Virus record (IMG/VR): IMGVR_UViG_3300046512_000131
Coordinates: 1 to 31,649 of that record
Length of the DNA stretch: 31,649 nt
Origin: a virus
Strand: one strand, 5' to 3'
In this document: positions 1,147 through 28,879 of the stretch, piece after piece
How the letters are laid out: each line of letters starts with the position of its first letter
How positions within the stretch are numbered: the first letter of the stretch is position 1
Notes under the pieces: model-generated
Told to the model about the DNA's origin: nothing
Databases searched by the model: none
Seen by the model: only the letters and a program-made list of their open reading frames with translations
Position numbers and translations under genes: made by a program

Positions 1147-1163
1147 GGGGATCTCCGATCCCG

Positions 1164-1184
1164 GGGACAATTCCAGGGACAATT
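1164..1184 (+). repeat. Pair of GGGACAATT repeats, left of putative attP
   Basis: Two direct copies of GGGACAATT at 1164-1172 and 1176-1184, spaced 12 bp. They have the same orientation as the two copies inside the 3' end of int. The spacing of about one helical turn is typical of protein-binding sites lined up on one DNA face. Confidence 0.7.
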
Positions 1185-1271
1185 AAGACGATTGATGATG
1201 CCTGGAGCCATACTCAGGCCCCGTATTCGTTGGGTTATTTATGGCTGAGGGCATCTTGGATCGTCTTCTGA

Positions 1272-1288
1272 GGAGGTTCAGGTCCTCC
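1272..1288 (+). other. T-arm-like hairpin inside putative attP
   Basis: GGAGG-TTCAGGT-CCTCC forms a 5 bp stem with a 7 base loop, the geometry of a tRNA T-arm. The loop starts TTC, but the position that is nearly always A58 is G. Integrases often use tRNA 3' ends as attachment sites, so this could be the att core. It is not a complete tRNA: no anticodon arm or acceptor is visible. It may simply be a hairpin. Confidence 0.3.
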
Positions 1289-1324
1289 AGTATACGTCCT
1301 AAACCCTCAATGAATTCAACTTAG

Positions 1325-2488
1325 TCAGCCAGTGCGGGGACAATTCGGGGACAATTGCTTGGGCGCGTACAGCTCAGCGAGCTTCGCAGCCTCCCGGCCT
1401 TTGTCTCCGCTGTCGATCCACTTCGAGTAGGTCTGGAAGAGCATGGCAGTGGTCGAGTGGCCCATCTGCCTGGCGATGTAGGCCGGGTTTATCCCGCCCA
1501 TCAGGGCCGTGGTGGCATAGGTGTGCCTGGTCTGGACAGCACCCCGGAGCCGGATGTCCAGTCGCTTCAGGGTAGGCGTGAAATAGACCTCTCGCTGGTT
1601 CCGCTCGGAGGCCCAGATCTTCTTCGTGTCCGGGTTCCAGAAGATCGGGTGATCCAGGCCCTTCATGAAGGTGGCCGGCTTCATCGCAACCAAGGCAGCG
1701 ACAGCACGAGGCGTCAGGTCGACGTCCCGGATCGTGCTCGTCTTGGTTCCCTTTTCCCGACCGTAGGTCTTGGCGGCGTCGATCCGCAGCTGATTGGTGG
1801 CCCAGTCGACCTTGCCCCACTTGACTATGATCTGCTCGCTGGGGCGAAGGCCGGTGCAGAAAGCGAACTCGAAATAGGCCCAGACCTCGACAGGCTGGCG
1901 CTGCTTCATGTCCGCCAGGATCCGTTCCATCTCGTCGACGGTGAACGGATCGGGGGTGGGCTTCTGGTGCTTTAGGTTCTTGATCTTGTCAGCCGGGCTG
2001 TTGGCGATCAGCTGATCATCGACAGCGGCTTCCAGGACGGCCCGAAGAGGGACCAGGTCGTTGTTGATCGTCTTGCCGGAGACGGACTTTGCCCGCTCGG
2101 CGATGACGGTCTTGATGTGGGACTGACGGACGTCTTCGATCGCTCTCTCACCCAGGGCAGGGACCCAGATTTTGTTGATCGAGCTCTGGTAGTGGAGGAA
2201 CGTGCCGTGCTCAACGGTCAGGGTGGCCAGCCAGTCTTTGGCGAAGGTCTTGAACGGGGTTCGACCTGTGACCTTGCCGTTGGCCTTCGCTTCGAAGAAG
2301 TCTTCACGACGATAGACCCCGGCCTCCATGGCGCCAGAAATCCGGGCCATCAGTCGGTTGGCGGCCTTCATGTTGGCTGGCGTCGGAGCCAGGTCGAGCG
2401 TTTCGGTCTGCCGTTCACCCAGGTGGGTGAACTTCAGCCTTATGCTGCTCGCCCTTGCTTCGACGGTTCCAGTTGACCTTCGACCCAC
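1325..2488 (-). CDS. int: Tyrosine site-specific integrase with DUF3596-type arm-binding domain
   Basis: Catalyses site-specific recombination between attP and a host attB. The N-terminal 65 residues (GTVEARASSIRLKF, then LDLAPTPANMKAANRL) match the DUF3596 arm-binding domain of lambda-type integrases. Residues about 78-165 form the core-binding SAM-like domain, and 180-360 the catalytic domain. The catalytic residues are visible: R215 (TGLRPSE), a Lys near 249, R321 (QTRHTYAT), H344 (QMGHS) and the nucleophile Y354 (FQTYSKW). The first His of the HxxR box is replaced by Val318; related integrases also vary there. Length 387 aa is normal. The start is GTG at 2488, inside the excisionase gene, with GGGG upstream. 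The last codons cover two GGGACAATT repeats. No disruption is seen. An integrase is unexpected in an N4-like genome. Confidence 0.95.
   Translation of the reverse strand: MGRRSTGTVEARASSIRLKFTHLGERQTETLDLAPTPANMKAANRLMARISGAMEAGVYRREDFFEAKANGKVTGRTPFKTFAKDWLATLTVEHGTFLHYQSSINKIWVPALGERAIEDVRQSHIKTVIAERAKSVSGKTINNDLVPLRAVLEAAVDDQLIANSPADKIKNLKHQKPTPDPFTVDEMERILADMKQRQPVEVWAYFEFAFCTGLRPSEQIIVKWGKVDWATNQLRIDAAKTYGREKGTKTSTIRDVDLTPRAVAALVAMKPATFMKGLDHPIFWNPDTKKIWASERNQREVYFTPTLKRLDIRLRGAVQTRHTYATTALMGGINPAYIARQMGHSTTAMLFQTYSKWIDSGDKGREAAKLAELYAPKQLSPNCPRTG
1337..1356 (+). repeat. Pair of GGGACAATT repeats in the 3' end of int
   Basis: Copies at 1337-1345 and 1348-1356, spaced 11 bp, in the same orientation as the pair at 1164-1184. 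They lie within the last codons of int, outside its catalytic domain. Probable integrase arm-type or accessory-factor binding sites. Confidence 0.7.
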
Positions 2489-2649
2489 TTCTCAACCCCT
2501 ACCGTGTCGATCATGATGCGCCCGTCGGGCGCCTTCTTGTACTGGCGATTTTCGAGCCAGACGCCCCTCTGGATCTTGTTCCGGATAGCGTCGGGGCTAT
2601 AGCCGCTATCGGCCGCGAACTTGTCAACGGTGACGTATTTCAGGCTCAT
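2440..2649 (-). CDS. xis: Excisionase-like small DNA-binding protein
   Basis: A 69 aa protein with the pattern of Xis-type proteins paired with DUF3596 integrases: YVTVDKFAADSGYS (first helix and turn), AIRNKIQRGVW (recognition helix), KAPDGRIMIDTVGVEKWVE (wing and last helix). Such proteins bend attP/attL/attR DNA and bias integrase toward excision. The gene overlaps the start of int by 49 bp, so the two should be made together. The ATG overlaps the upstream stop (ATGA). Assignment rests on the pattern and on the position next to int. Confidence 0.82.
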   Translation of the reverse strand: MSLKYVTVDKFAADSGYSPDAIRNKIQRGVWLENRQYKKAPDGRIMIDTVGVEKWVEGQLEPSKQGRAA

Positions 2650-2933
2650 TGGCCGACCACCTTGAGCTTGGACTTGGCCTTAGTCAGCGGCTTGGTAGCT
2701 GCTGGCTGGACCCACTTGGGATCTCGATCGATGCAGGTGACGTTGGGCCCTTCCACATCTAGCCAGGAGATGTTGGGCTTTGAGGTTCCGTTGCCCTTCA
2801 TCAGCTCGACGTAGCTGCCTTTGCCGACTTCGGCGTAGATTTTGGATCCCCGCCGCAAGATCGTGTTTTGCGTATAAGTGCCGTTAATCCGAAGGATCAC
2901 AGCACCTTCGTCGATGACGTGGAAGAGGTCCAT
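2646..2933 (-). CDS. Hypothetical protein (95 aa)
   Basis: Beta-rich in the first 60 residues (VILRINGTYTQNTILRRGSK), with a lysine-rich tail (TKPLTKAKSKLKVV). AGGTAG lies upstream of the ATG. The stop overlaps the excisionase start, so it is coupled to the integration genes. The family was not recognised. The basic tail would suit nucleic-acid contact, but that is only a guess. Confidence 0.8.
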   Translation of the reverse strand: MDLFHVIDEGAVILRINGTYTQNTILRRGSKIYAEVGKGSYVELMKGNGTSKPNISWLDVEGPNVTCIDRDPKWVQPAATKPLTKAKSKLKVVGQ

Positions 2934-8643: not shown

Positions 8644-10056
8644 TTAGACGACGAGGCTGTACAGCAGGTCGTAGACGGCCATGGCGTAACGGATGCCCAT
8701 CTCGTCGTGGCCGTACTGGGACATGTGAGCGCCGCTGTCCCGGATGCGGCCGAAGTTGCCGGCGATGGTCGGGATGGTCTTGGCGTAGAACACCTTCACG
8801 CCCGCCGTCACCGCTCCGTTGCCCGTCCACGTCATCGTGGTGGCTCCGGTGGTGAAGGTGGCGGTCTTGGTGGTGCCGTCGTCGAAGTAGGCGGTGTAGG
8901 TGTCCGAGCCGCCCAAGCCGGCAAACGGGGCCGACAGAGTGGCATTGGTGCCGGCGACCAGGGGAGCCGAAAGCGTCACGAAGCCCGACTTGGTGGCGTT
9001 GGTTCTGTCGGTGCCGGTCATGAAGCGTTTGGCGACGGTGTCGATGTAGTAGACGTTCTTGACCCCGGCAGCGATGGCTGCAGCCACACCAGCGGCAACC
9101 GCAGCCACCTTGGTGTCGGCCGCATCGCTGCTGGTGAAGGGCGCCGTGACGACGATCATGGTGTCCGGCGCGTAGGACCGGGCGAGCTGGATGTCTTCGC
9201 TGACCGCCAGGGTCATCGCCGCATCGGTGGCGGACGTGTCGTTGTAGCCGCCGGTCAGCATGATCAGATCCAGATCGCTGACGTAGTTCGCGATCTGGGG
9301 GATACGAGTGCGGTAGCGGCCCGAGGCGGAGGCGGTGTAGCCCTCGCCGCCCTTACCCGCCGGGATGACGTCCCAGCCGGCGTACAGGCCCATACGGCTG
9401 GCCCAGCCACCGAGCGGAATGGCGACCGGAGACAGGGTGCCCTTGTACTCGACGTAGCTGTCGCCCATCACGAAGACGCGAGGACGGCGACGGAGGGGGA
9501 AGACGTCGTAGGTCGGGCGGACCTTGACGGACGACATCTGCGAGATGTCGCCGCTGTGAACCCGGATCTCCCGATCCGCGAACGAGCCGAAATCGATCAG
9601 CTGGACCTTGTCGCCGGTCGAGGTATTGTACTCGTCGGCGTTGATCTTTTCCCACAGCCGGGTGGCCTGGTTGCGGACGAGAACCGTGTAGAGGCCGCTT
9701 CGGCTGTAGAACTCGAAGGCATCCGAGTTCGTCGCGATGCCGAAGCCGCCGCCGAAGTGGTTTGCCCGAGCCAAGATAGGAGTCGACCCGGCCGGGAAAC
9801 CCCCACCCAGGGGGCGAACGAACTGACCATTCAGGTCAAAACCGCTCGTGTAGTCGCCGCCGGTCAGGCGAGACTTGCCGGTGGTGGCGACATCGGTGCT
9901 CTCGGACACGGTCGGAGGCGACGCCATCAGGGCAGGCGGAAGCTGACCATCCCTGAAAGCATTGATCAGCTTCAGGGCTCGGTAGGAGATAGCATCCCTA
10001 TACCGGCCGCCGATGGCTTCCAGGATGTCGCGGGAAAGCGGCGTGTAATCGGTCAT
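8644..10056 (-). CDS. SGNH-hydrolase domain protein, probable virion-associated esterase
   Basis: Residues about 190-470 form an SGNH/GDSL hydrolase: VFVMGDSYVEYKG with nucleophile Ser200, TGGYND (268-273) as the block with the oxyanion Asn, and DSGAHMSQYGHDEMG with His444 near the C-terminus. The N-terminal 190 residues are unrelated and may be an attachment domain. About 90 residues near 355-410, rich in Thr and Gly (TYTAYFDDGTTKTATFTTGA), look like a beta-sandwich insertion. Such enzymes de-acetylate or de-acylate surface polysaccharide. Encoded just after two beta-rich proteins with ATGA coupling, so a structural complex is likely. Substrate unknown. Confidence 0.85.
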   Translation of the reverse strand: MTDYTPLSRDILEAIGGRYRDAISYRALKLINAFRDGQLPPALMASPPTVSESTDVATTGKSRLTGGDYTSGFDLNGQFVRPLGGGFPAGSTPILARANHFGGGFGIATNSDAFEFYSRSGLYTVLVRNQATRLWEKINADEYNTSTGDKVQLIDFGSFADREIRVHSGDISQMSSVKVRPTYDVFPLRRRPRVFVMGDSYVEYKGTLSPVAIPLGGWASRMGLYAGWDVIPAGKGGEGYTASASGRYRTRIPQIANYVSDLDLIMLTGGYNDTSATDAAMTLAVSEDIQLARSYAPDTMIVVTAPFTSSDAADTKVAAVAAGVAAAIAAGVKNVYYIDTVAKRFMTGTDRTNATKSGFVTLSAPLVAGTNATLSAPFAGLGGSDTYTAYFDDGTTKTATFTTGATTMTWTGNGAVTAGVKVFYAKTIPTIAGNFGRIRDSGAHMSQYGHDEMGIRYAMAVYDLLYSLVV

Positions 10057-10475
10057 AGAGCGGCTCCGTAGGTCAGGACTTGACCCAGATACGTCAAGAA
10101 GGGACCCTGATATCCATAGGTCAGTGCGTTAGAGGCGATGCTTTCGCCGGCCGCTGTGACGCTCAAGTAGAGCGTCGTATCCTTCAGCGTCCCATTGGGA
10201 GCAGCTTCACGGATAGTAACGACGAACGCCCCTTCTTGAGCGATGCCTAGACCGACGATCAGGTTGTTGAGACCGTCGATAGCCACTCGATTATCGAGAG
10301 GCAAAATCGACAGTGTTGAGCCGGTCGTCCTGCCTTGAACGGCTCCGATGACGGTTCCCGCGGGGCTGGACTTGCTGAACGAATAGTTCGACAGGCTCAG
10401 AGTGTTGAGGACCGTCGGGAACAGAACCTGTCCCGCGACGAGCGGTAGACCGGAGTTGCCGAGAACGACGCTCAT
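10053..10475 (-). CDS. Beta-rich, cadherin-like phage structural protein candidate
   Basis: A 140 aa protein of alternating small and hydrophobic residues. The pattern FSKSSPAGTVIGAVQGRTTG, then AIDGLNNLIVG and ITIREAAP-like strands, resembles cadherin-like beta-sandwich modules common in phage tail or decoration proteins. The start overlaps the upstream stop and its end overlaps the SGNH gene (ATGA). Probably a virion or host-contact accessory; not proven. Confidence 0.8.
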   Translation of the reverse strand: MSVVLGNSGLPLVAGQVLFPTVLNTLSLSNYSFSKSSPAGTVIGAVQGRTTGSTLSILPLDNRVAIDGLNNLIVGLGIAQEGAFVVTIREAAPNGTLKDTTLYLSVTAAGESIASNALTYGYQGPFLTYLGQVLTYGAAL

Positions 10476-10828
10476 CAGCCAAACCGCCCGATGCTGGCGG
10501 CCAGGTTCGCCGGGGTGCCGCTGACCACGTGGACTCGGAGGGTGGCGTTGCCGGCCATGTTCAGCTCAGCCGTCCCGGTCGCGGTCTTGCTGGAGATGTC
10601 CAGCCAGACGTCAGCGTCGGCAGGGGCGGCCTTCGGCATGAGGGCCTGAAGGGCGACGGTGGCCGTGCCGGTGAACTGGACCGAGTAGATGTAGCGGCCG
10701 GCCGGAACACCGGTCAGCAGCGCCTCGGCGCCTGCGAAAGGAGTCGGCGCAGGATAAATCGGAGAATTCGTCGTGACGTTGAAGGCCACAAAGTTGTTCG
10801 GAGGAGTGCTCGTAGAGGTCACGTCCAT
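10475..10828 (-). CDS. Beta-rich small structural protein candidate (117 aa)
   Basis: Begins MDVTSTSTPPNNFVAFNVTT, followed by beta strands with Ala, Thr and Val (GRYIYSVQFTGTATVALQ, ATLRVHVVSG). No signal peptide. Composition matches phage decoration or fibre-tip proteins. AGGA precedes the ATG. First gene of a three-gene coupled set ending with the SGNH hydrolase, just after a strong hairpin terminator. Confidence 0.78.
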   Translation of the reverse strand: MDVTSTSTPPNNFVAFNVTTNSPIYPAPTPFAGAEALLTGVPAGRYIYSVQFTGTATVALQALMPKAAPADADVWLDISSKTATGTAELNMAGNATLRVHVVSGTPANLAASIGRFG

Positions 10829-10856
10829 CGGCAGCTATCCTAGTACAACAAGGGAA

Positions 10857-10887
10857 GGGGCGTTGCTTCAATACAAAGCAACGCCCC
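10857..10887. terminator. Strong hairpin, probable bidirectional terminator
   Basis: GGGGCGTTGCTT (10857-10868) pairs perfectly with AAGCAACGCCCC (10876-10887), 12 bp. On the plus strand TTTT follows; on the minus strand TTCCCTTGTT follows. It lies between the Ig-like gene stop (10933) and the next start (10828). Confidence 0.82.
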
Positions 10888-10932
10888 TTTTGCATAGGAT
10901 ATTATACTAGAGATAACTTTAGTTGGACTTGA

Positions 10933-11415
10933 TTAGCTGACGGTGACCGTCACGCTGCTCGTAAATCCACCATCCTTTGACTTGGCGGTGATCACCGAGG
11001 TGCCCAGGGCGACAGCGGTGATCAGACCGGAGGCGCTGACGGTGACCTTGGTCGGATCGCTCGAACTGTAGGTGACGTCGGTGTTCGAGGCCGTGGTCGG
11101 GGCGTAGGTGATGGTGGCCTGCTCGGTGGTGTCCGAGCTCAGGTTCATGGCCACGTCGGAGGCGACCAGGGTGATGCCGGTCAGGTAGGTGAAGTTGATC
11201 TTCACGGCCTGCATGTTCAGCTCGCCGATGGCGTAGAGCTTGTCCCGGATGTCGTGGAACAGGACGTGATTGGCCGGGTTGGCGTCTTCGACGTCGGTGC
11301 CTCCACCATCGTGGTAGAAATTCCCGGCGTCGGTGTAGCCGCCCGGCAGGGCAGTCCCGTAGGCCAGGACCTTCAAGTCTTTGTCGGAGGCGCGGAACGC
11401 CAGCAGATATCTCAT
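10933..11415 (-). CDS. Ig-like (BIG2) protein, capsid decoration candidate (N4 gp17 position)
   Basis: The C-terminal 85 residues form a bacterial Ig-like (Big_2) domain: VTYSSSDPTKVTVSASGLIT, then GTSVITAKSKDGG and the final strand SSVTVTVS. The N-terminal 75 residues (MRYLLAFRASDKDLKVLAYG, FHDIRDKLYAIGELN) may anchor it to the shell. In N4 the Ig-like decoration protein gp17 is encoded right after the RNAPII subunit gp16, the same place as here, so a capsid-surface role is likely. AAGGA precedes the ATG. Flanked by terminators on both sides, suggesting a single-gene, highly expressed unit. Confidence 0.85.
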   Translation of the reverse strand: MRYLLAFRASDKDLKVLAYGTALPGGYTDAGNFYHDGGGTDVEDANPANHVLFHDIRDKLYAIGELNMQAVKINFTYLTGITLVASDVAMNLSSDTTEQATITYAPTTASNTDVTYSSSDPTKVTVSASGLITAVALGTSVITAKSKDGGFTSSVTVTVS

Positions 11416-11517: not shown

Positions 11518-12729
11518 CTAGCTCAGGGCGTAGTTAGCCTGCGCCACGTCTTTGTAGAGATGCTCGTCGATCTTCCCAACGCCCACTGGGCGATTGACGA
11601 TTTGGGAGACGAGGAAGCTCAGCAGCTCGCTCTTGGCGATCAGTTGGAGCTGCAGATTGTACTGCCGGCGCAAGTCGTTGCCGTAGTGGGGAAGGCACCG
11701 GAAGCAGTCGTGGATCGAGACGATGGTGAAAGGCTTGGCCGGCAGGCTGGCAATCAGCTCCAGGACCGGATCTGCGTCGATCAGTCCAGCGTTGTCGTGG
11801 TCGATGACGTCGAGGATCCGAGCAGAGAGGTATCCACTCGCTCGATAGTGATCCCAGAGCTTGGCGACCAGCTTGTCCTGAACACGGTCAGTCCGTTGGC
11901 CATGTCCTGAGCGCTCTCCAGCCAGAGCTTTTCGAACTTCGAGCACTTGTTGGGGATCGAAGTCACAGCGCCTGGTGATTTCACGGACGATCATCCCGTC
12001 GATAGAGTGGATGGTGTTGGCGCCCAGCGAGCGGCCGCTGTCGGTCGGAGCGTTGACCTTGTAGGTCACCTCGTAAGGGACGTCGAGGAAGTGGACCGTG
12101 TCGGCCACCGGGCTCATCACCTTGACGTGGACGTGGAAGTTGTCCGGCAGGACCCAGTCATGGCTCAGGCCGTCGGGGTTCCACATGGTGAGGAAGGCTT
12201 CGTTCAGCTCCCAGGCTCCGGGAGCCAGGTCACTCAGGGTCTCGTAGAAGGTGTTGAGCAGAGCGCCCTCACCGAACACCCGCTTGGGCACCGCGGTGGA
12301 GCTGTACAGGGCCGTCATGACGGCGTTCTTGGTCTGCTCAGGCGAGACCTGGGCGACGCCGCCGATACGAGTCAGCATCTCCTGGTAAATGCCCCAGTAG
12401 GCGTTCTCCCGGTTGCCGGTGTCGACCACGTTACAGAGCTGCGAGGCCAGGCGGTCGCCGGTCAGGGCAGCCAGCAGCTGGAGCCCCGAGCTGGTGGCGT
12501 CGAGGCTGATCATGTAGCCGATCGGCTGGCCCTGGATGACCTGGCGCCAGGCTTTGACGCCGGCATAGTAAAGGGCCGGTTCCTTGGCCTGTTGGATCAT
12601 ATCTTCCAGGCCGGATTCGTGCTGATCGAACCAAGCGAGGCGATCGTTCCAGGGTTCCTTGTCCAGGCCGAAGTTGCTGGCGATGTCGATCTTCAGGTAC
12701 TCACGGCCGGTGAATTCTTGGAAAGCCAT
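11518..12729 (-). CDS. RNA polymerase RNAPII, catalytic subunit (N4 gp16-like, RNAP2)
   Basis: C-terminal half of a split T7-like single-subunit RNA polymerase. The three polymerase motifs are visible: motif A SLDATSSGLQLL with Asp77 (compare T7 Asp537), motif B TKNAVMTALYSS (133-144) with Lys134 and Tyr142 (T7 Lys631/Tyr639), and motif C IHDCFRCLP with Asp341 (T7 Asp812). Length 403 aa is close to N4 gp16. In N4 it pairs with gp15 and transcribes middle genes with help from other phage proteins. I start at ATG 12729 (GGAG upstream) because the longer frame begins with TTG inside a terminator. Confidence 0.93.
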   Translation of the reverse strand: MAFQEFTGREYLKIDIASNFGLDKEPWNDRLAWFDQHESGLEDMIQQAKEPALYYAGVKAWRQVIQGQPIGYMISLDATSSGLQLLAALTGDRLASQLCNVVDTGNRENAYWGIYQEMLTRIGGVAQVSPEQTKNAVMTALYSSTAVPKRVFGEGALLNTFYETLSDLAPGAWELNEAFLTMWNPDGLSHDWVLPDNFHVHVKVMSPVADTVHFLDVPYEVTYKVNAPTDSGRSLGANTIHSIDGMIVREITRRCDFDPQQVLEVRKALAGERSGHGQRTDRVQDKLVAKLWDHYRASGYLSARILDVIDHDNAGLIDADPVLELIASLPAKPFTIVSIHDCFRCLPHYGNDLRRQYNLQLQLIAKSELLSFLVSQIVNRPVGVGKIDEHLYKDVAQANYALS

Positions 12730-12751
12730 GGTTATCTCCAGGATAAAGGCC

Positions 12752-12776
12752 AAAGAAAAAGGCCCCGAAGGGCCTT
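12752..12776 (-). terminator. Terminator just upstream of RNAP2
   Basis: AAGGCCC (12759-12765), loop CGAA, GGGCCTT (12770-12776). Minus strand: stem with TTCG loop followed by TTTTTCTTTGG. A classic intrinsic terminator, 23 bases before the RNAP2 ATG, so RNAP2 needs read-through or a promoter in this short gap. Confidence 0.88.
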
Positions 12777-13531: not shown

Positions 13532-13946
13532 GGTGCGCCACCGTGAGATGTTCGGCAGCCCAGCCGTCGGTCAGGTCGCCGTTGCCCTTGGGCGGCCACT
13601 GATCGGAGACCCAGATGTCGGGCTGGTTCTTGGCTCGATCCCAGGTCCAGCCGGCGAAGTACATGACGTGGTCGGGTCGGTAGTCCCGTGTCCAGTGCCC
13701 AGGCTCGCTGCTGTGGACGACGTTGAGGGGCAGGCCTGGGAGCCAGGTGAAGGGTGGATCTGGGGGTCTGGTGGGGTTGTTGACCTGGTCGCAAGGCAGG
13801 GCGCCACAGGCCGGACAGCTATCGTGTTCAGTCTCTGCTCGCATCTGGGCTTTGCCCGCCTCGACGCCAGCGACTTCCTCGGCGATGCGTTGTGCTCGGT
13901 TTCGAGCCATACTGGCATCCAGCAGTCGGGCTTCTTCCTTGGTCAT
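13524..13946 (-). CDS. Hypothetical protein with CPACG zinc-knuckle-like motif (140 aa)
   Basis: The N-terminal helix (KEEARLLDASMARNRAQRIA) leads to SCPACGALPCDQV, a Cys cluster that may bind zinc. A Trp- and Pro-rich C-terminal half follows (PPFTWLPGLP, MYFAGWTWDRAKNQPDIW). The start overlaps the RNAP1 stop (ATGA). Family unknown. Confidence 0.78.
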   Translation of the reverse strand: MTKEEARLLDASMARNRAQRIAEEVAGVEAGKAQMRAETEHDSCPACGALPCDQVNNPTRPPDPPFTWLPGLPLNVVHSSEPGHWTRDYRPDHVMYFAGWTWDRAKNQPDIWVSDQWPPKGNGDLTDGWAAEHLTVAHHG

Positions 13947-14794
13947 TCGACCAGTTCCTTCTCGGCAAGCAGGATGGTGGCCTTGTTCCAGGCCGCCCCC
14001 TGATAGTTGACGTGGTAGCCTTGGCAGTAGACCCGTCCCCGCTTGTCGTACTTGTGGGTCAGGTAGAACTCATTGCCCTCCTGGATCAGCAGGGCGATGA
14101 CGTCCTTAGCGGTCCGGTCGTACTTCTCGAACGCACGCTTGCGCTTGTCGAAGTCGTCCCTGGTCTCGCCGGCCTTGGGCTTGTCAAGGTTCCGCCACTT
14201 GTTTTGAATCATGGTGGCGGTGTCGAGATCGATGGCGAACTTGACCCGGTTCACCCTGTTGAGGTGATCCAGGCAGACGTCGTCATCGTGGTGGTTCTTC
14301 TTCAGGATCACCGATCCGCCGGTCATCAGGTAGCCAGTGTCGGTGTTGCAGGTGACCTGCTTGGGTTGGACCACCATTGGCAGAGGGTACTGGAACTTGT
14401 CCAGCTCTTCCTGGACGTCGGCCGAGAGGGTGAACTTCACGACGAAGATCCTCAGCTCGGGATTCCAGTCCACCAGGTCGGCTTCAGCGGCCCGCAGGAT
14501 CATATCCGCGGTCAGCTGGCTGTCGTCGAAGTGGTGACGCAGGACGCCGACCAGGATGGGCAGGGTGGTCCGCTTGTGCAGAGCCATCTGGGTCAGCAAG
14601 TCGAACCCGAAAGGGAACGGGATCTCCTTCTCCAGCATGTAGGCGGAGAAGTCGAAGCCGTCGCAGGTTTGGAATTCCTGCCGGATGCGAGGGATCAGCT
14701 GGTTCTTGTTGAACAGCTTCTCCAGCTCGACTTGGTGGACCATCTTAGTGGCCTCAGGGTCGACATAGGGTTCTACATAGGCGAGAGCAGCCAT
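13943..14794 (-). CDS. RNA polymerase RNAPII, N-terminal subunit (N4 gp15-like, RNAP1)
   Basis: N-terminal half of the split T7-like polymerase. The diagnostic stretch is near the C-terminus: KYDKRGRVYCQGYHVNYQG, matching the T7 RNAP region WRGRVYAV upstream of motif A, followed by ATILLAEKELVE. The rest (QVELEKLFNKNQ, ELRIFVVKFTLSADVQEE, HDDDVCLDHLNRVNRVKF) fits the promoter-recognition/thumb part. Length 283 aa compares with about 269 in N4 gp15. The ATG at 14794 is preferred to a GTG at 14839 that lies inside a terminator stem. Works only together with RNAP2, encoded 1.2 kb downstream. Confidence 0.9.
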   Translation of the reverse strand: MAALAYVEPYVDPEATKMVHQVELEKLFNKNQLIPRIRQEFQTCDGFDFSAYMLEKEIPFPFGFDLLTQMALHKRTTLPILVGVLRHHFDDSQLTADMILRAAEADLVDWNPELRIFVVKFTLSADVQEELDKFQYPLPMVVQPKQVTCNTDTGYLMTGGSVILKKNHHDDDVCLDHLNRVNRVKFAIDLDTATMIQNKWRNLDKPKAGETRDDFDKRKRAFEKYDRTAKDVIALLIQEGNEFYLTHKYDKRGRVYCQGYHVNYQGAAWNKATILLAEKELVE

Positions 14795-14824
14795 GGTTGA
14801 TGTCCGTGTCTGTCGGGAAATAGC

Positions 14825-14852
14825 CAAAGAAAAAGCCACCCGAAGGTGGCTT
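14825..14852 (-). terminator. Terminator upstream of RNAP1
   Basis: AAGCCACC (14833-14840), loop CGAA, GGTGGCTT (14845-14852). On the minus strand it is followed by TTTTTCTTTGGC, the same tract as at the terminator before RNAP2. Confidence 0.87.
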
Positions 14853-15219: not shown

Positions 15220-15401
15220 TCGTGGCGCTCCATGATCTTCAGCTGATCGGTCAGCATGTCGATGAACATCGCCAAACCGTCGGGACCAAAGACGACTTGG
15301 TCGCCGTCTGATTTCACCGTTAGGACGGACCCACTCCGGCTCAGGGTTATGCTCGACCCTCCGAAGAAGCGGAGGATTTGCTCATGCGTTTCCTGGGCCA
15401 T
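15216..15401 (-). CDS. Small hypothetical protein (61 aa)
   Basis: Starts MAQETHEQILRFFGGSSI, followed by beta strands (TLSRSGSVLTVKSDGDQVVF) and a C-terminal helix. The ATG at 15401 is in TGATG with the upstream stop; the longer frame to 15449 is not needed. Not recognised. Confidence 0.75.
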   Translation of the reverse strand: MAQETHEQILRFFGGSSITLSRSGSVLTVKSDGDQVVFGPDGLAMFIDMLTDQLKIMERHE

Positions 15402-15994
15402 CAGAAGGTGCCCCAGAACTTGGCCTCGACACAGAGGAAGGGCCGCCACACCTCGTCGAAGTAGAGGTTGGGCAGGGTGTCAGCCCGGTTCAGGCGGAAC
15501 ATCGGGGCGATGTCACGATGCTGTAGACCGGCGAGGCCGCAGCCTACAGCCGTCACCTGGAAGTCGAGCTCAGGGTGTTCCTTGGCGAAGGCCAGGAACG
15601 AATGGACGTAGGCCGCTATCGAGTTCAACGGCAGGGTCTTGATGGTCTTGCCCTTGGTAGGGATCCCGAAGCTGTTGCCTTGAAGGCCGTAGCCCTGTCC
15701 TAGGATAGCTCCCCGACGTTGGTAGGCCAATCGAGCAGCGCCAGCACCATGGACACCAGCCTCGTTGGATCCGAAGACGAAGATCATCTTGGTCACGTCG
15801 ACGGGGTTGGGCTTGCCGTAGAAGGTGGCTTCCGGGGTGAGCCCGTCAGTGATCACGGTGTTGGGATTGGATCCGCTCTTGGTGAAGGCATCCCGGATCT
15901 TACGACCCTCCGCGGTGCGGATAGGGATGTTCTGGATGTTAGGCTCGGACGGACCAGCCCACCTGGTCGGGAAGGGAACGATCTTGTCGGCCAT
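15401..15994 (-). CDS. Macro-domain-like A1S_2505-type phage protein with a DNA polymerase A-like N-terminal segment
   Basis: Residues about 70-197 match the pattern of the A1S_2505 family of phage non-structural proteins: MIFVFGSNEAGVHGAGAARL, GQGYGLQGNSFGIPTK, TLPLNSIAAYVHSFLAFA and VGCGLAGL. This is a macro-domain-like fold that could bind ADP-ribose or a related nucleotide. Residues 11-37 (RWAGPSEPNIQNIPIRTAEG, then RKIRDAF) closely resemble the segment of family A DNA polymerases just before motif A (pattern GRxSSxxPNLQNIPIRTxxG). The rest of a polymerase is absent. AGGAGG precedes the ATG. Function of either part in the phage is unknown. Confidence 0.8.
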   Translation of the reverse strand: MADKIVPFPTRWAGPSEPNIQNIPIRTAEGRKIRDAFTKSGSNPNTVITDGLTPEATFYGKPNPVDVTKMIFVFGSNEAGVHGAGAARLAYQRRGAILGQGYGLQGNSFGIPTKGKTIKTLPLNSIAAYVHSFLAFAKEHPELDFQVTAVGCGLAGLQHRDIAPMFRLNRADTLPNLYFDEVWRPFLCVEAKFWGTF

Positions 15995-22217: not shown

Positions 22218-22470
22218 GTAGACCTCCTGAGTTATTATCGGGTTAGAACCTGAGAGGCGCGTCAGCGCCTAAGGACATAGGGGGTACCCTATATTGTGTT
22301 AGAGATTGACCCCGGGGGGGTAGTGTTAGTGTTAGGGGGGCATAGCCCCCAGTGTAGTGCGCTAACACACAACAAACGAAAATCGGCCTACGGCGAATGC
22401 TCACCACGATCTCAACTTTATATAAAAAATGAGATCTCTCTTTACGTCCCGACATATGTTTGAGGAACCT
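22218..22470. promoter_or_regulatory. Divergent control region with clustered small hairpins
   Basis: The gap between the two arms. It contains AGGCGC-GTCA-GCGCCT (22255-22270), ATAGGG-GGTA-CCCTAT (22277-22292) and GGGGGC-ATA-GCCCCC (22336-22350; 6 bp stem, 3 base loop), plus repeated GTGTTAG (around 22296, 22324 and 22330). N4 virion RNA polymerase recognises promoters folded as 5-7 bp hairpins with 3-base loops, so the last one fits. This is inference; no transcription start is visible from sequence alone. Confidence 0.5.
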
Positions 22471-22830: not shown

Positions 22831-23307
22831 ATGCCCAGAACCAGGGGCCGGCTTCGGCCAATCATCGAGAACTACTACCCCCACCTCTCCAAGCCTGTGA
22901 ACAGGTTGCTGGTGAGGTCCGTGGTTCAAGGGCGCCAGCTGTGTGGGGGCGACCTCGACAAGCTTCTCGTACTGCAGGTCATCATCCTGAGGATGAACGA
23001 GCACCCGGACTATCCTGAGCTGTTGCCTGGCGAGATGCTCACAGGGAAGGTGGACCCACTGCCGGCCCTGCCGGTGAGCGTCCAATCGATCGCCGACATC
23101 ACCGACATTCCGCGGGAGAGCGTACGTCGGAAGGTGGGCGAGCTGGTTCGAGCTGGGTGGGTGGAGCGGATTGGAACCAGTCACCTCTTGAGGCTGACGC
23201 CTCGGGGCTACGTCGACATCCACCCGCTGCGAGAAACTTTCATCAGCCTTGTGACCGAATGTGTCGTAACCACCGACCATATTCTGGCCGAGAGGGTGTC
23301 AAGGTAA
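22831..23307 (+). CDS. Winged-helix transcription regulator candidate (158 aa)
   Basis: Residues about 83-129 form a winged helix: VQSIADITDIPRESVRRKVG with the recognition helix ESVRRKVGELVRAGW, then wing VERIGTSHLLRLTPRGYV. The N-terminal part is helical and basic (RTRGRLRPIIENYYPHLSKP). GGGAGG lies 9 bases before ATG 22831, which I prefer to 22762. In a phage with an integrase, a DNA-binding protein beside the divergent promoter region is the best candidate for a lytic/lysogenic switch, but no repressor family was recognised. Confidence 0.8.
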   Translation: MPRTRGRLRPIIENYYPHLSKPVNRLLVRSVVQGRQLCGGDLDKLLVLQVIILRMNEHPDYPELLPGEMLTGKVDPLPALPVSVQSIADITDIPRESVRRKVGELVRAGWVERIGTSHLLRLTPRGYVDIHPLRETFISLVTECVVTTDHILAERVSR

Positions 23308-24050: not shown

Positions 24051-24668
24051 ATGACCGACAAAGAAAGCCCCATCACTCCGACCGTCGGTCGGCAAGTGCT
24101 GGTCCGTGGTCAAGTCATCGGTCCCGGTGCCCCGTACCGAGAATTCCCCGCGAGCGTTACGCAGGTCCACAGCCAGAACTGCATCGACGTCGAAGTGTTC
24201 GGCCTGGATAGCGGTCGGCTGCTCCTGAAATCTCTGAACTTCGACGGCGATCTCGAAGTGGAAGTCCATCACGCTCGCTGGCGCTGGATGGACTACCAGG
24301 TGCTGACGGCCAAGGCGCAGTTAGAAGTTTCTGCCCCTGCGTCAACCGTCGAGTCGGCGCCGGCGCACGATCCGGGCAGTTGCTTCGGGTGGGCGCTGGA
24401 TAAGCTTAAAGACGGAGCCCGCGTGACGCGCTCCGGCTGGAACGGGAAGGGTATGTGGCTCTACCTCGTGCCGGCCGCCAGCTACCCGGCTCAGACCCAA
24501 GCGGCCAAGGACAACATTGGCCCGATGGTCCCCTACGGCGCCTACCTCGCCATGAAGACGGCCCAGGGCGTGGTCGTTCCTTGGCTCGCGTCGCAGACGG
24601 ACGTCCTGGCCGAAGACTGGTCGGTCGTGAACGACGACCTGGTGATCGACTGGTCCAAGGCTGCCTGA
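24051..24668 (+). CDS. Tad2-like (DUF2829) protein, putative anti-Thoeris factor
   Basis: The C-terminal domain (about 111-196) matches the Tad2/DUF2829 pattern: FGWALDKLKDGARVTRSGWN, GKGMWLYLV, YGAYLAMKTAQGVVVPWLAS, QTDVLAEDW. Tad2 proteins form tetramers that sequester cyclic ADP-ribose-type signals of Thoeris defence, and some also bind CBASS cyclic nucleotides. The first 100 residues are a separate beta-rich domain (TVGRQVLVRG, RWRWMDYQVL) with a linker to residue 110; most Tad2 proteins are only the short domain, so this is a fusion. Preceded by a hairpin (24013-24030) and an ATCCTGA leader. Confidence 0.85.
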   Translation: MTDKESPITPTVGRQVLVRGQVIGPGAPYREFPASVTQVHSQNCIDVEVFGLDSGRLLLKSLNFDGDLEVEVHHARWRWMDYQVLTAKAQLEVSAPASTVESAPAHDPGSCFGWALDKLKDGARVTRSGWNGKGMWLYLVPAASYPAQTQAAKDNIGPMVPYGAYLAMKTAQGVVVPWLASQTDVLAEDWSVVNDDLVIDWSKAA

Positions 24669-25890: not shown

Positions 25891-26580
25891 GTGCTTACTA
25901 AAGAAGTGGTGGAGCGGGCGGTCCCCGCAAACCTGAAAAGCTCAATCACGCAGCAATTGGTCGATAGGATCAACACTGCGGTCGGCGATCCAATCATCGC
26001 CGAACAAGTCAGGGAAAACTTCCTGAACTACACGTCCGTGCTTCGCGATGGTAAGTTCAAGACCGAGGATTACCTGCACGCGGTCATGTACGTGAGCTTC
26101 AAGCTCCTAGGCGATTCCAACCTGATCGCCTACACGAAGACCTTCCCGCAGCGCTACACGGACCTGATTTCCAAGGGCACTTCGTCCAAGGACATCGCCG
26201 CTTATGTGGCGGCATACAACAAGGGAAAGCTCGTCAACCTCGTGTTCGAGCAGTCCGCCGTGCCTTCGTGGGTGCTTAACCAGCACATCTACCAGGAGGC
26301 AATCAACACTCAGTACGACCTTATGACCACCGCAGCGTCGGAGAAGGTGCGTACAGAGGCGGCGAATTCGCTTCTTACCCACCTGAAGCGCCCTGAAGCT
26401 ATCAAAGCCAGCATCGATGTCACCCTGAAGGACTCTTCGGGCATGACTGAGATGAAGGAAGCCATGCGCCAGATGGCCCTTCAGCAGCAACAGCTCATCC
26501 AGAACGGAGCCTCAGCCCGGCAGATTGCCGACATGAGCATCATCGAAGCCGAGTTCGAGGAAGTCCCGAATGAAGCTTAA
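25891..26580 (+). CDS. N4 gp69-like protein, terminase small subunit candidate
   Basis: A 229 aa helical protein starting with GTG at 25891 and preceded by ATCCTGAAGG. It sits directly before the large terminase, with an 11 bp overlap, as gp69 does in N4. It shows long helices (LKRPEAIKASIDVTLKDSSG, MKEAMRQMALQQQQLIQNG) and an acidic tail. By position it could recognise packaging sites, but a helix-turn-helix is not obvious. Confidence 0.85.
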   Translation: MLTKEVVERAVPANLKSSITQQLVDRINTAVGDPIIAEQVRENFLNYTSVLRDGKFKTEDYLHAVMYVSFKLLGDSNLIAYTKTFPQRYTDLISKGTSSKDIAAYVAAYNKGKLVNLVFEQSAVPSWVLNQHIYQEAINTQYDLMTTAASEKVRTEAANSLLTHLKRPEAIKASIDVTLKDSSGMTEMKEAMRQMALQQQQLIQNGASARQIADMSIIEAEFEEVPNEA

Positions 26581-28171
26581 GCCCCCTCTCAAGAAGCAGG
26601 AGCTCGACGTATGGCTGGATGAGGTTGACTACTCCTTCCTCAACAGCCCCGACTACCTGCCATCAGAGTTCGCTCTGATGTTCATGAACTTCATCAAGCT
26701 GGTGAACGGTTCGACCGGGGAGTCGCACAAGACCCCTCCGGTCCACCTCGCCATGCTCGATAAGGTGGCCAACGGCGGGTCCTACATCGCCAATCTGTGC
26801 TTCCGTGGGGCGGCTAAAACCACCCTGTTCATGGAGTATTTCTGCCTTTTCATCGCCGTGATGGGCTTTTTGCCGGGTCTCGGGAAGATCGACGGCATGA
26901 TCTACGTATCCGACTCCATGGAGAACGGGGTCGCCTCTGCCCGGAAAAACATCGAATTCCGGTACAATAACAGCGATTTCTTGCAGGAATGGCTGCCTGG
27001 AGCCCGGTTTACCGACAAGTACATCGAGTTCACGAACAAAGAAGGCCACCGCCTCGGCATCAAGATGTTCGGGGCCAAGACCGGCATCCGCGGTACCAAG
27101 ATCTTCGGCAAGCGTCCTAAGCTGGCCGTGCTCGACGACCTGGTGAGCGACGACGACAGCAAGAGCCAGGCCGCGATGCTGGCCATCAAGGACACGGTCT
27201 ACAAGGGCATCAACCACGCCCTCGACCCGACCAGGCGCAAGGTCATCTTCAACGGCACGCCGTTTGGCAAGGAAGACATCCTGGTCCAGGCCGTCGAGTC
27301 CGGCGCCTGGGACGTGAACGTCTGGCCCGTGTGCGAGAAGTTCCCGTGCCCCAAGGAGGACTTCGTCTCCGCCTGGCCCGACCGCTTCACCTATGAGTAT
27401 GTGCTGGAGCAGTACGAGTTGGCGGTGCTTAACGGACAGCTGGCGTCCTTCCTGCAGGAGCTGATGCTCCGGATCACCAGCGAAGAAGAGCGCCTGGTCC
27501 AGGACGCCGAGATCCGCTGGTACTCTCGGTCCCAGCTCCTCAACATGGTGTCGACGTTCAACTTCTACATCACCAGCGATATCGCCACGTCCAAGAAGCA
27601 GACCGCCGACTTCTCCAATATCTCGGTCTGGGCCTACAACGCTCAAGGTGACTGGTTCTGGGTCGACGGGATCCACGCCCGCCAGACGATCGACAAGACC
27701 TGGGACGACCTGTTTCGATTGGTCCAGGAGTACCGGCCCCAGGCGGTCGGGATCGAGGTCACGGGACAGCAGCAGGCTTACATCAAGCTGCTCCAGCTGG
27801 AGATGATGAACCGGAACATCTGGTTCAACTTCGCGTCCAATCAGAAGGGCACCGAGCCCGGCATCCGCCCAGTCGTCGACAAGCTGTCGCGCTTCAATGT
27901 CGTCGTTCCCTGGTTCAAGTCGGGGAAGATGTACTTCCCGCAGGAAATGAAGACGTCGGAGATCATGGGTTACTGCCTGGGTCAGATTAGACTCGCCACC
28001 CAGAGCGGCATCAAAGGCAAAGATGATTTCATCGACGCCATCTCGATGTTGGGTTATCTAACTCCTTGGAAGCCTTCCGAAGCAAATCCTATGATGGGTC
28101 ACAATGGTGGTCCCGAGTGGGAAGACGAAATCCCGGAAACATCTTCCGCCCTCTCATCTTATATTGTGTGA
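26570..28171 (+). CDS. terL: Terminase large subunit (N4 gp68-like)
   Basis: Packages DNA into the capsid with ATPase and nuclease domains. Walker A-like FRGAAKTT (78-85), Walker B LAVLDD (185-190), and the RNase H-like nuclease acids SDIATSKKQTADF with Asp337, VGIEVTG near the middle, and GKDDFIDAISML near the end. Length 533 aa matches the family. It overlaps the upstream gene by 11 bp (ATG inside its tail), so the two are translated together. Confidence 0.95.
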   Translation: MKLKPPLKKQELDVWLDEVDYSFLNSPDYLPSEFALMFMNFIKLVNGSTGESHKTPPVHLAMLDKVANGGSYIANLCFRGAAKTTLFMEYFCLFIAVMGFLPGLGKIDGMIYVSDSMENGVASARKNIEFRYNNSDFLQEWLPGARFTDKYIEFTNKEGHRLGIKMFGAKTGIRGTKIFGKRPKLAVLDDLVSDDDSKSQAAMLAIKDTVYKGINHALDPTRRKVIFNGTPFGKEDILVQAVESGAWDVNVWPVCEKFPCPKEDFVSAWPDRFTYEYVLEQYELAVLNGQLASFLQELMLRITSEEERLVQDAEIRWYSRSQLLNMVSTFNFYITSDIATSKKQTADFSNISVWAYNAQGDWFWVDGIHARQTIDKTWDDLFRLVQEYRPQAVGIEVTGQQQAYIKLLQLEMMNRNIWFNFASNQKGTEPGIRPVVDKLSRFNVVVPWFKSGKMYFPQEMKTSEIMGYCLGQIRLATQSGIKGKDDFIDAISMLGYLTPWKPSEANPMMGHNGGPEWEDEIPETSSALSSYIV

Positions 28172-28180
28172 GCCCATCCA

Positions 28181-28879
28181 ATGGACCTGACCGAACTGTA
28201 TCGCCGGCTGGCCGTAGGCGAGCTCTCCAACCTGTCTCTGGCTGAGGGCGGGGTGATCGACGAGGAGAAGAAGGCGGAGATCGTGCTGTACGCGAACTCC
28301 GGTCTGAAGAAGCTCTACACGCGCTTCCTCTTGAAGGAGGACTCGCTGTTCATCGACGAGCAGATCGGAAACAGGACCAACTATCCCCTCGACAAGAAGT
28401 ACGCCCTGTCAAACACCGACGTGAGCGATCCTTCTCCGCGGTACATCAACGACATCGGCAGGCCCTTCACCAACGACGTGATCAAGGTGATGGCCGTCTA
28501 TGACGGCCACGGCTGCAAGCTGCCGATCAACGATCCCAACCGACGCAACAGCGTCTACACGCCTCAGCCTGCCCTGCTTCAAATTCCTCACCCCATCCCC
28601 GGCGCCCCGCTGGGGATCCTATACCAGGCGTCTCACACCGAACTTTTGGTGTCGACGCCTCTCCAAGTTCTGGAGCTTCCCGAGTTTCTGACGGGAGCGC
28701 TCACGGCTTTCGTCGCAAGCAAGGTGTTCAGCCACATGAACACCCAAGAGAGTACGGCTAAAGCCGCAGAGCATCTCAGAAATTACGAGTCAATCTGTAT
28801 TGAAACGCTCGAACAAGACCTGGTGCCGGTTGCTTCGTTGACCGGTGAAGCCCGCTTTGTGAAGAATGGTTGGGTCTAA
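28181..28879 (+). CDS. N4 gp67-like structural protein candidate (232 aa)
   Basis: Lies between the terminase and the appendage gene as N4 gp67 does. Begins MDLTELYRRLAVGELSNLSL with LYANSGLKKLYTRFLLKED, a pattern common to phage neck or adaptor proteins (VLYANSGLKKLYTRF). The C-terminal part has a helical EHLRNYESICIETLEQD segment. Probably a head-tail connector or tail-associated protein; function inferred by position. Confidence 0.88.
   Translation: MDLTELYRRLAVGELSNLSLAEGGVIDEEKKAEIVLYANSGLKKLYTRFLLKEDSLFIDEQIGNRTNYPLDKKYALSNTDVSDPSPRYINDIGRPFTNDVIKVMAVYDGHGCKLPINDPNRRNSVYTPQPALLQIPHPIPGAPLGILYQASHTELLVSTPLQVLELPEFLTGALTAFVASKVFSHMNTQESTAKAAEHLRNYESICIETLEQDLVPVASLTGEARFVKNGWV

Follow-up and report, generated by a model that had tools for sequence, protein, structure and literature searches.

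The window analysed here spans 31,649 bp of a virus record and probably derives from an N4-like alphaproteobacterial podophage that carries a functional-looking, site-specific integration cassette consisting of xis, int, and an attP-like region. The host is probably an alphaproteobacterium belonging to the Caulobacterales. N4-like phages have been treated as strictly lytic and are used in phage-therapy work; judged from these genes and sites, some of them could probably also reside quietly inside bacteria. The first-pass annotation regarded cultured N4-like phages as lytic and devoid of integration genes. That the present case would be unprecedented is not supported, as integrase-bearing N4-like viruses are already known. 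A 2023 study lists 54 N4-like genomes or proviruses with lysogeny genes as well as 40 provirus regions, mainly in Moraxella, and its authors infer lysogeny in some lineages (PMC10654107). The Schitoviridae described there resemble the window in combining N4 hallmark genes with a phage integrase. That study counts genes and provirus regions, whereas the present analysis resolves the arms and core of attP, a tRNA-Leu target in a sister phage, donor phages, and a candidate regulator, none of which was found in the accessible part of PMC10654107. A resolved attachment site opens N4-like lysogeny to direct tests in Caulobacter, which is widely established as a laboratory host. For the Caulobacter N4-like phage Circe, lytic activity has been described in a text that makes no mention of an integrase (PMC13001222).

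The xis-int genes in an N4-like genome

The comparisons below rely mainly on two N4-like relatives. The first is an int-bearing contig (3300028584_000320) that includes the loci L003, L007, and L068 and is called the L003 contig here; the second is L004. The main genes of the window are as follows.

1325..2488, minus strand: int, tyrosine integrase of 387 aa with a GTG start, an arm-binding N-terminal domain, and a catalytic domain
2440..2649, minus strand: xis, Xis-like excisionase of 69 aa (phrog_9668 excisionase, E 5.6e-14)
2646..2933, minus strand: small ORF directly upstream of xis, with a 4-bp overlap; a 50% identical homologue lies upstream of xis in L003
4611..7744, minus strand: dCTP deaminase, vWA protein, and AAA ATPase, N4-like middle genes adjoining the integration cassette
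11518..12753, minus strand: RNAP2, N4 gp16-like subunit of RNAP II (phrog_2051, E 1.1e-150; 77% identical in the L003 contig)
13943..14839, minus strand: RNAP1, N4 gp15-like subunit of RNAP II (phrog_2166, E 5.2e-103)
25891..28879, plus strand: gp69-like protein, TerL, and gp67-like structural protein (89%, 89%, and 64% identical in L068)

The N4-like context proposed at first pass was confirmed: the analysis recognised the split RNAP II (gp15/gp16-like), the AAA/vWA pair, dCTP deaminase, and TerL, accompanied by gp69 and gp67 in the order known from N4. As in N4 relatives, the leftward genes occupy the window from 22.2 kb down to its left edge, and the rightward late genes begin near 24 kb and continue to the right edge. 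The virion RNAP lies beyond the 31.6-kb fragment and was found in the sisters L003 (30%, ~2,340 aa) and L004 (33%); the portal, absent from the fragment, is present in L003 at 64%, and a DNA polymerase is present in both. By RNAP2, the nearest cultured phages are the Schitoviridae Rhizobium phage RHph_X3_15 (63%) and Sinorhizobium phage ort11 (60%), which share with the window the order RNAP1-RNAP2-Ig-like-AAA-vWA-dCTP deaminase. In contrast to the window, neither has an integrase, and thymidylate synthase and rIIA/rIIB follow the dCTP deaminase gene where the window has xis-int-attP.

The int ORF (1325-2488) is intact and contains no internal stop. Its product matched PF00589 with 45.4 bits (cut-off 27.1) and, at the N-terminus, Arm-DNA-bind_2 (PF12167) with 40.6 bits, above the cut-off; the PHROG integrase family phrog_1 was matched at E 1.9e-47. 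R215, R321, H344, and Y354 were invariant in an alignment of four integrases, and the histidine position of the 'HxxR' motif is occupied by V318 in the window and by Y in L003 and L004. These results, together with the phrog_9668 match and a 49-bp overlap between xis and int, confirm the intact tyrosine integrase and the overlapping Xis-like gene proposed at first pass. A single-sequence structure model of the integrase (pLDDT 37) was of no use. Over 385 aa, the integrase is 69-70% identical to those of L003 and of a prophage in Caulobacter sp. Root343; Xis is 80% identical to its L003 counterpart and 61% to that of the Caulobacter prophage, and the genes overlap in the same way in both.

The proposal that both genes are coupled into a long operon was borne out in part. 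Coupling by overlap is evident (49 bp between xis and int, 4 bp with the preceding ORF), but the operon is not unbroken: int closes its own cluster, and an 86-nt gap lies upstream of ORF 2646-2933. On gene order, this arrangement would differ from lambda-type control.

When 19 N4-like records were searched, an integrase was present in two, L003 and L004, and absent from the other 17 close relatives. In both contigs, xis-int occupies a slot matching that of the window. The L003 contig (71.8 kb) carries vRNAP, portal, TerL, gp69, RNAP1/2, DNA polymerase, and helicase together with xis-int, and L004, the third N4-like case, carries vWA, xis, int, rIIA, rIIB, helicase, DNA polymerase, and vRNAP. 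The window might instead be an assembly chimera in which an N4-like phage was joined to a temperate siphophage, and the nearest non-N4 integrases do come from ordinary temperate phages. We consider this explanation extremely improbable and the chimera alternative to have failed, because three contigs from different records carry the cassette in a matching N4 neighbourhood; moreover, the window and L003 agree on both sides of the cassette, and GC content is even along the window (0.59-0.62).

The two ends of the L003 contig share a 534-bp stretch that includes the 3' part of the dCTP deaminase gene (92.5% identity), so the contig is near genome length; the repeat represents either a tandem duplication or a mixed-strain assembly end. 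At 9906-13401 of L003, the DNA polymerase ORF breaks off and is followed by an HNH-like ORF (11932-12669), after which polymerase-like sequence picks up again in an ORF near 12712. This layout suggests a homing endonuclease within an intron or intein. In the window, two minus-strand genes lie at 8644-11415, between RNAP2 and the AAA gene: one encodes an Ig-like (Big_2) protein, and the other is a 470-aa ORF that matched no family and in which SGNH-hydrolase-like motifs were seen by eye. The conserved N4-like small protein at 15401-15994 (minus strand) resembles a family A DNA polymerase fragment in its first ~40 residues (PF00476, 25.9 bits, below the cut-off).

The attP-like region

Directly downstream of int lies an attP-like region (1162-1357) that was absent from the first-pass annotation, whose feature, placed at 1164-2649, needs to be extended leftward to 1162. 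Two pairs of GGGACAATT arm-type repeats flank a T-stem-like core.

1162..1185, no strand: int-distal arm-type repeat pair CGGGGACAATTCCAGGGACAATTA (repeat count and alignment of five attP regions)
1272..1288, no strand: putative core GGAGG-TTCAGGT-CCTCC, whose inverted repeat encloses a 7-nt overlap (five attP regions aligned)
1335..1357, no strand: int-proximal arm-type repeat pair CGGGGACAATTCGGGGACAATTG, partly within the 3' end of int, kept in L003, L004, L057, and L058

The window as a whole contains four copies of GGGACAATT, compared with an expectation of 0.22 (0/100 shuffles), and the same layout of arms and core was found in four relatives. The integrase ending that corresponds to the int-proximal repeat pair, Pro-Asn-Cys-Pro or Thr-Asn-Cys-Pro, is also retained in relatives. 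In the alignment of the five attP regions, the core of the window stands where L003 has a tRNA-Leu T-arm, and we infer that 1272-1288 is the recombination core. The 28-nt sequence TGGTGCGGATGAGAGGACTCGAACCTCC within the L003 core recurs without change in Caulobacter Root343, where it forms the 3' end of tRNA-Leu(TAG). This 28-mer was found in 136 of 398 Caulobacterales genomes, nearly always as a single copy, and its reversed control was not among the matches listed for the same genomes. The integrase gene of the Root343 prophage directly adjoins the tRNA-Leu(TAG) gene, and more distant integrases of the family adjoin tRNA-Glu, tRNA-Asp, and tRNA-Val genes. By this comparison, the core sites would correspond to the T-stem, and the 7-bp overlap to the T-loop.

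In the proposed mechanism, Int would bind the inverted-repeat core and the pairs of arm repeats that flank it, and exchange strands across the 7-bp overlap, thereby inserting the circularised genome into the host site; Int together with Xis would reverse the reaction. The L003 phage would insert at the 3' end of tRNA-Leu(TAG). The overlap of the window reads ACCTGAA, whereas that of the tRNA-Leu T-arm reads ACTCGAA, so the target of the window phage should be a host site other than tRNA-Leu(TAG). No convincing attB for the window core was detected in the 390 Caulobacteraceae and 381 Alphaproteobacteria genomes sampled, and a search of viral contigs for the core plus arms gave no match.

These observations could also be explained by a decayed cassette, in which an integrating ancestor lost integration as the window core drifted away from the tRNA-Leu T-arm (ACCTGAA for ACTCGAA, no CCA end). 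The missing attB in the genomes sampled and the resemblance of the core to a tRNA T-stem without an acceptor end are consistent with decay. However, int and xis are intact, the inverted repeat is perfect, all four arms are retained, and a new target is equally possible; we therefore regard decay as unlikely and favour a functional cassette.

Several candidates were rejected. The window core is not a tRNA gene: the window contains no tRNA, and the core has no CCA end and a non-canonical T-loop. An 18-nt core match in a conserved Caulobacteraceae gene (APLEDLNLK) is probably due to chance, with favoured codons and no integrase beside it, and is a weak lead; the gene lies ~1.8 kb from tRNA-Leu(TAG) in the genome G074 and on a separate contig from it in Root343, which points to coincidence. 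A search with the arm pattern yielded one further relative, L063, with a tRNA-Ser-like sequence and no N4 genes in the 3.5 kb covered; two other hits (L064 and L065) were unrelated simple repeats. In two Novosphingobium species (L026 and L027), integrases located at tRNA-Glu scored indistinguishably against the window integrase and had identical downstream sequence.

Source of the cassette

The integrase tree grouped the window and L003 with the Root343 prophage and the phages L057 and L058, and L004 with L059 and L060. The N4 integrases thus occupy two separate places in the tree, and supported branches force at least two changes. On this tree, the cassette needs to have been gained or exchanged at least twice, each time in the slot that follows the vWA/dCTP deaminase genes. 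The Root343 prophage (L025/L002), L057, and L058 share with the window a 70%-identical integrase, the same xis-int overlap, and the arm repeats, and their core is tRNA-Leu(TAG). They differ in having no N4-like genes in the stretches examined and, for the whole L002 record, no RNAP2. The probable source is non-N4 temperate phages that share these hosts, from which the cassette was acquired at least twice. Repeated capture of one cassette at one slot shows a route by which a lytic lineage can gain integration.

Lysogeny and the early region

The temperate life cycle proposed at first pass was not matched by a provirus. An RNAP2 scan of ~85,000 genomes with two peptide patterns detected no N4-like provirus, and the 390 Caulobacteraceae genomes gave only weak RNAP2 matches, to the N-terminal part of longer RNAP frames of T7-type length. 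The only prophage found to use this type of integrase was the non-N4 one of Root343, and no N4-like provirus with attL/attR was found. The window, L003, and L004 assemblies represent the free form, because phage genes flank attP on both sides.

Int might instead act in transient integration, or cut recombination intermediates during lytic infection, with no stable repressed provirus. T7-like cyanophages with int and att provide a precedent, as they integrate but form no stable lysogens (PMC8776855), and both the position of int at the end of a lytic middle gene cluster and the lack of an N4-like provirus in the genomes scanned agree with it. The presence of a xis gene and of a regulator restricted to int-bearing phages fits a lysogenic cycle better, however, and N4-like proviruses have been reported (PMC10654107). 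We rate integration without lysogeny as a serious but lesser possibility and retain a lysogenic cycle as the preferred reading. The candidate regulator and a neighbouring early-region element are listed below.

22290..22370, minus strand: early-region element, hairpin GGGGGC-TAT-GCCCCC followed by CTAACACTAACACTACCCCCCCGGGG (identical in L007, 1924-1965)
22831..23304, plus strand: winged-helix protein, candidate lysogeny regulator (HTH/MarR/IclR matches weak, below cut-off)

The winged-helix gene adjoins the early promoter region, and its transcription leads away from the early operon. No promoter of the sigma-70 type was seen in its vicinity. Its structure model was modest (pLDDT 67), with weak MarR-like matches (E 0.009). 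The sole homologue in 2.9 million viral contigs was on the L003 contig, at the equivalent place; none occurred in 50,697 phage records, and the gene was absent from the int-less relatives that cover the region (L008, L011, L014, L016, and L019). The co-occurrence of regulator and int is weak evidence because the window and L003 phages are closest kin.

The chances that this gene has a role in lysogeny are about even. Its function could equally lie elsewhere, such as in late-gene regulation or in a process akin to plasmid partition, and L003 could share it simply through kinship: the two phages are mutually nearest relatives (RNAP2 77%) and have other genes exclusive to both, and the partition proteins TubR and AspA were among the weak fold matches. 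On the other side, the early-region position and MarR-like fold fit a pairing of MarR and integrase that has been proposed for temperate T7-like phages; LUZ100, a phage with its own RNAP, carries both an integrase and a MarR-like regulator (PMC10134795). LUZ100 and the T7-like cyanophages resemble the window as own-RNAP phages that carry an integrase, and LUZ100 also in its MarR-like regulator. They belong to another phage family, however, and N4 early transcription proceeds via the virion RNAP; unlike in LUZ100, the regulator of the window stands away from int.

RNAP II of the phage would transcribe int along with the leftward middle genes, and a provirus would stay quiet partly because its early genes need a virion-carried RNAP that is absent from the lysogen. 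If the winged-helix gene does serve lysogeny, its product would restrain the early promoter region. Such an N4-type switch, in which a co-inherited repressor shuts the early region, the lack of virion RNAP keeps the provirus silent, and RNAP II supplies int early, is a speculative model that we hold to be rather doubtful as a whole. N4-like lysogeny raises the question of how a silent provirus would wake in a phage that relies on an injected RNA polymerase to express its early genes.

A GC-rich hairpin with a 3-nt loop, followed by CTACCCCCCCGG, heads the early region in many N4-like relatives; the element may serve as a promoter for the virion RNAP or as a signal at the genome end. The TAACAC/GTGTTA motif within it is present in four copies in both int-bearing phages, compared with 0-2 in int-less relatives. 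The element was rejected as int-specific, as shorter forms occur in int-less relatives. Further to the right, the gene at 24051-24668 (plus strand) encodes a C-terminal Tad2-like domain (Thoeris anti-defence 2; PF11195, E 5.5e-25) and has a homologue at the equivalent place in L068.
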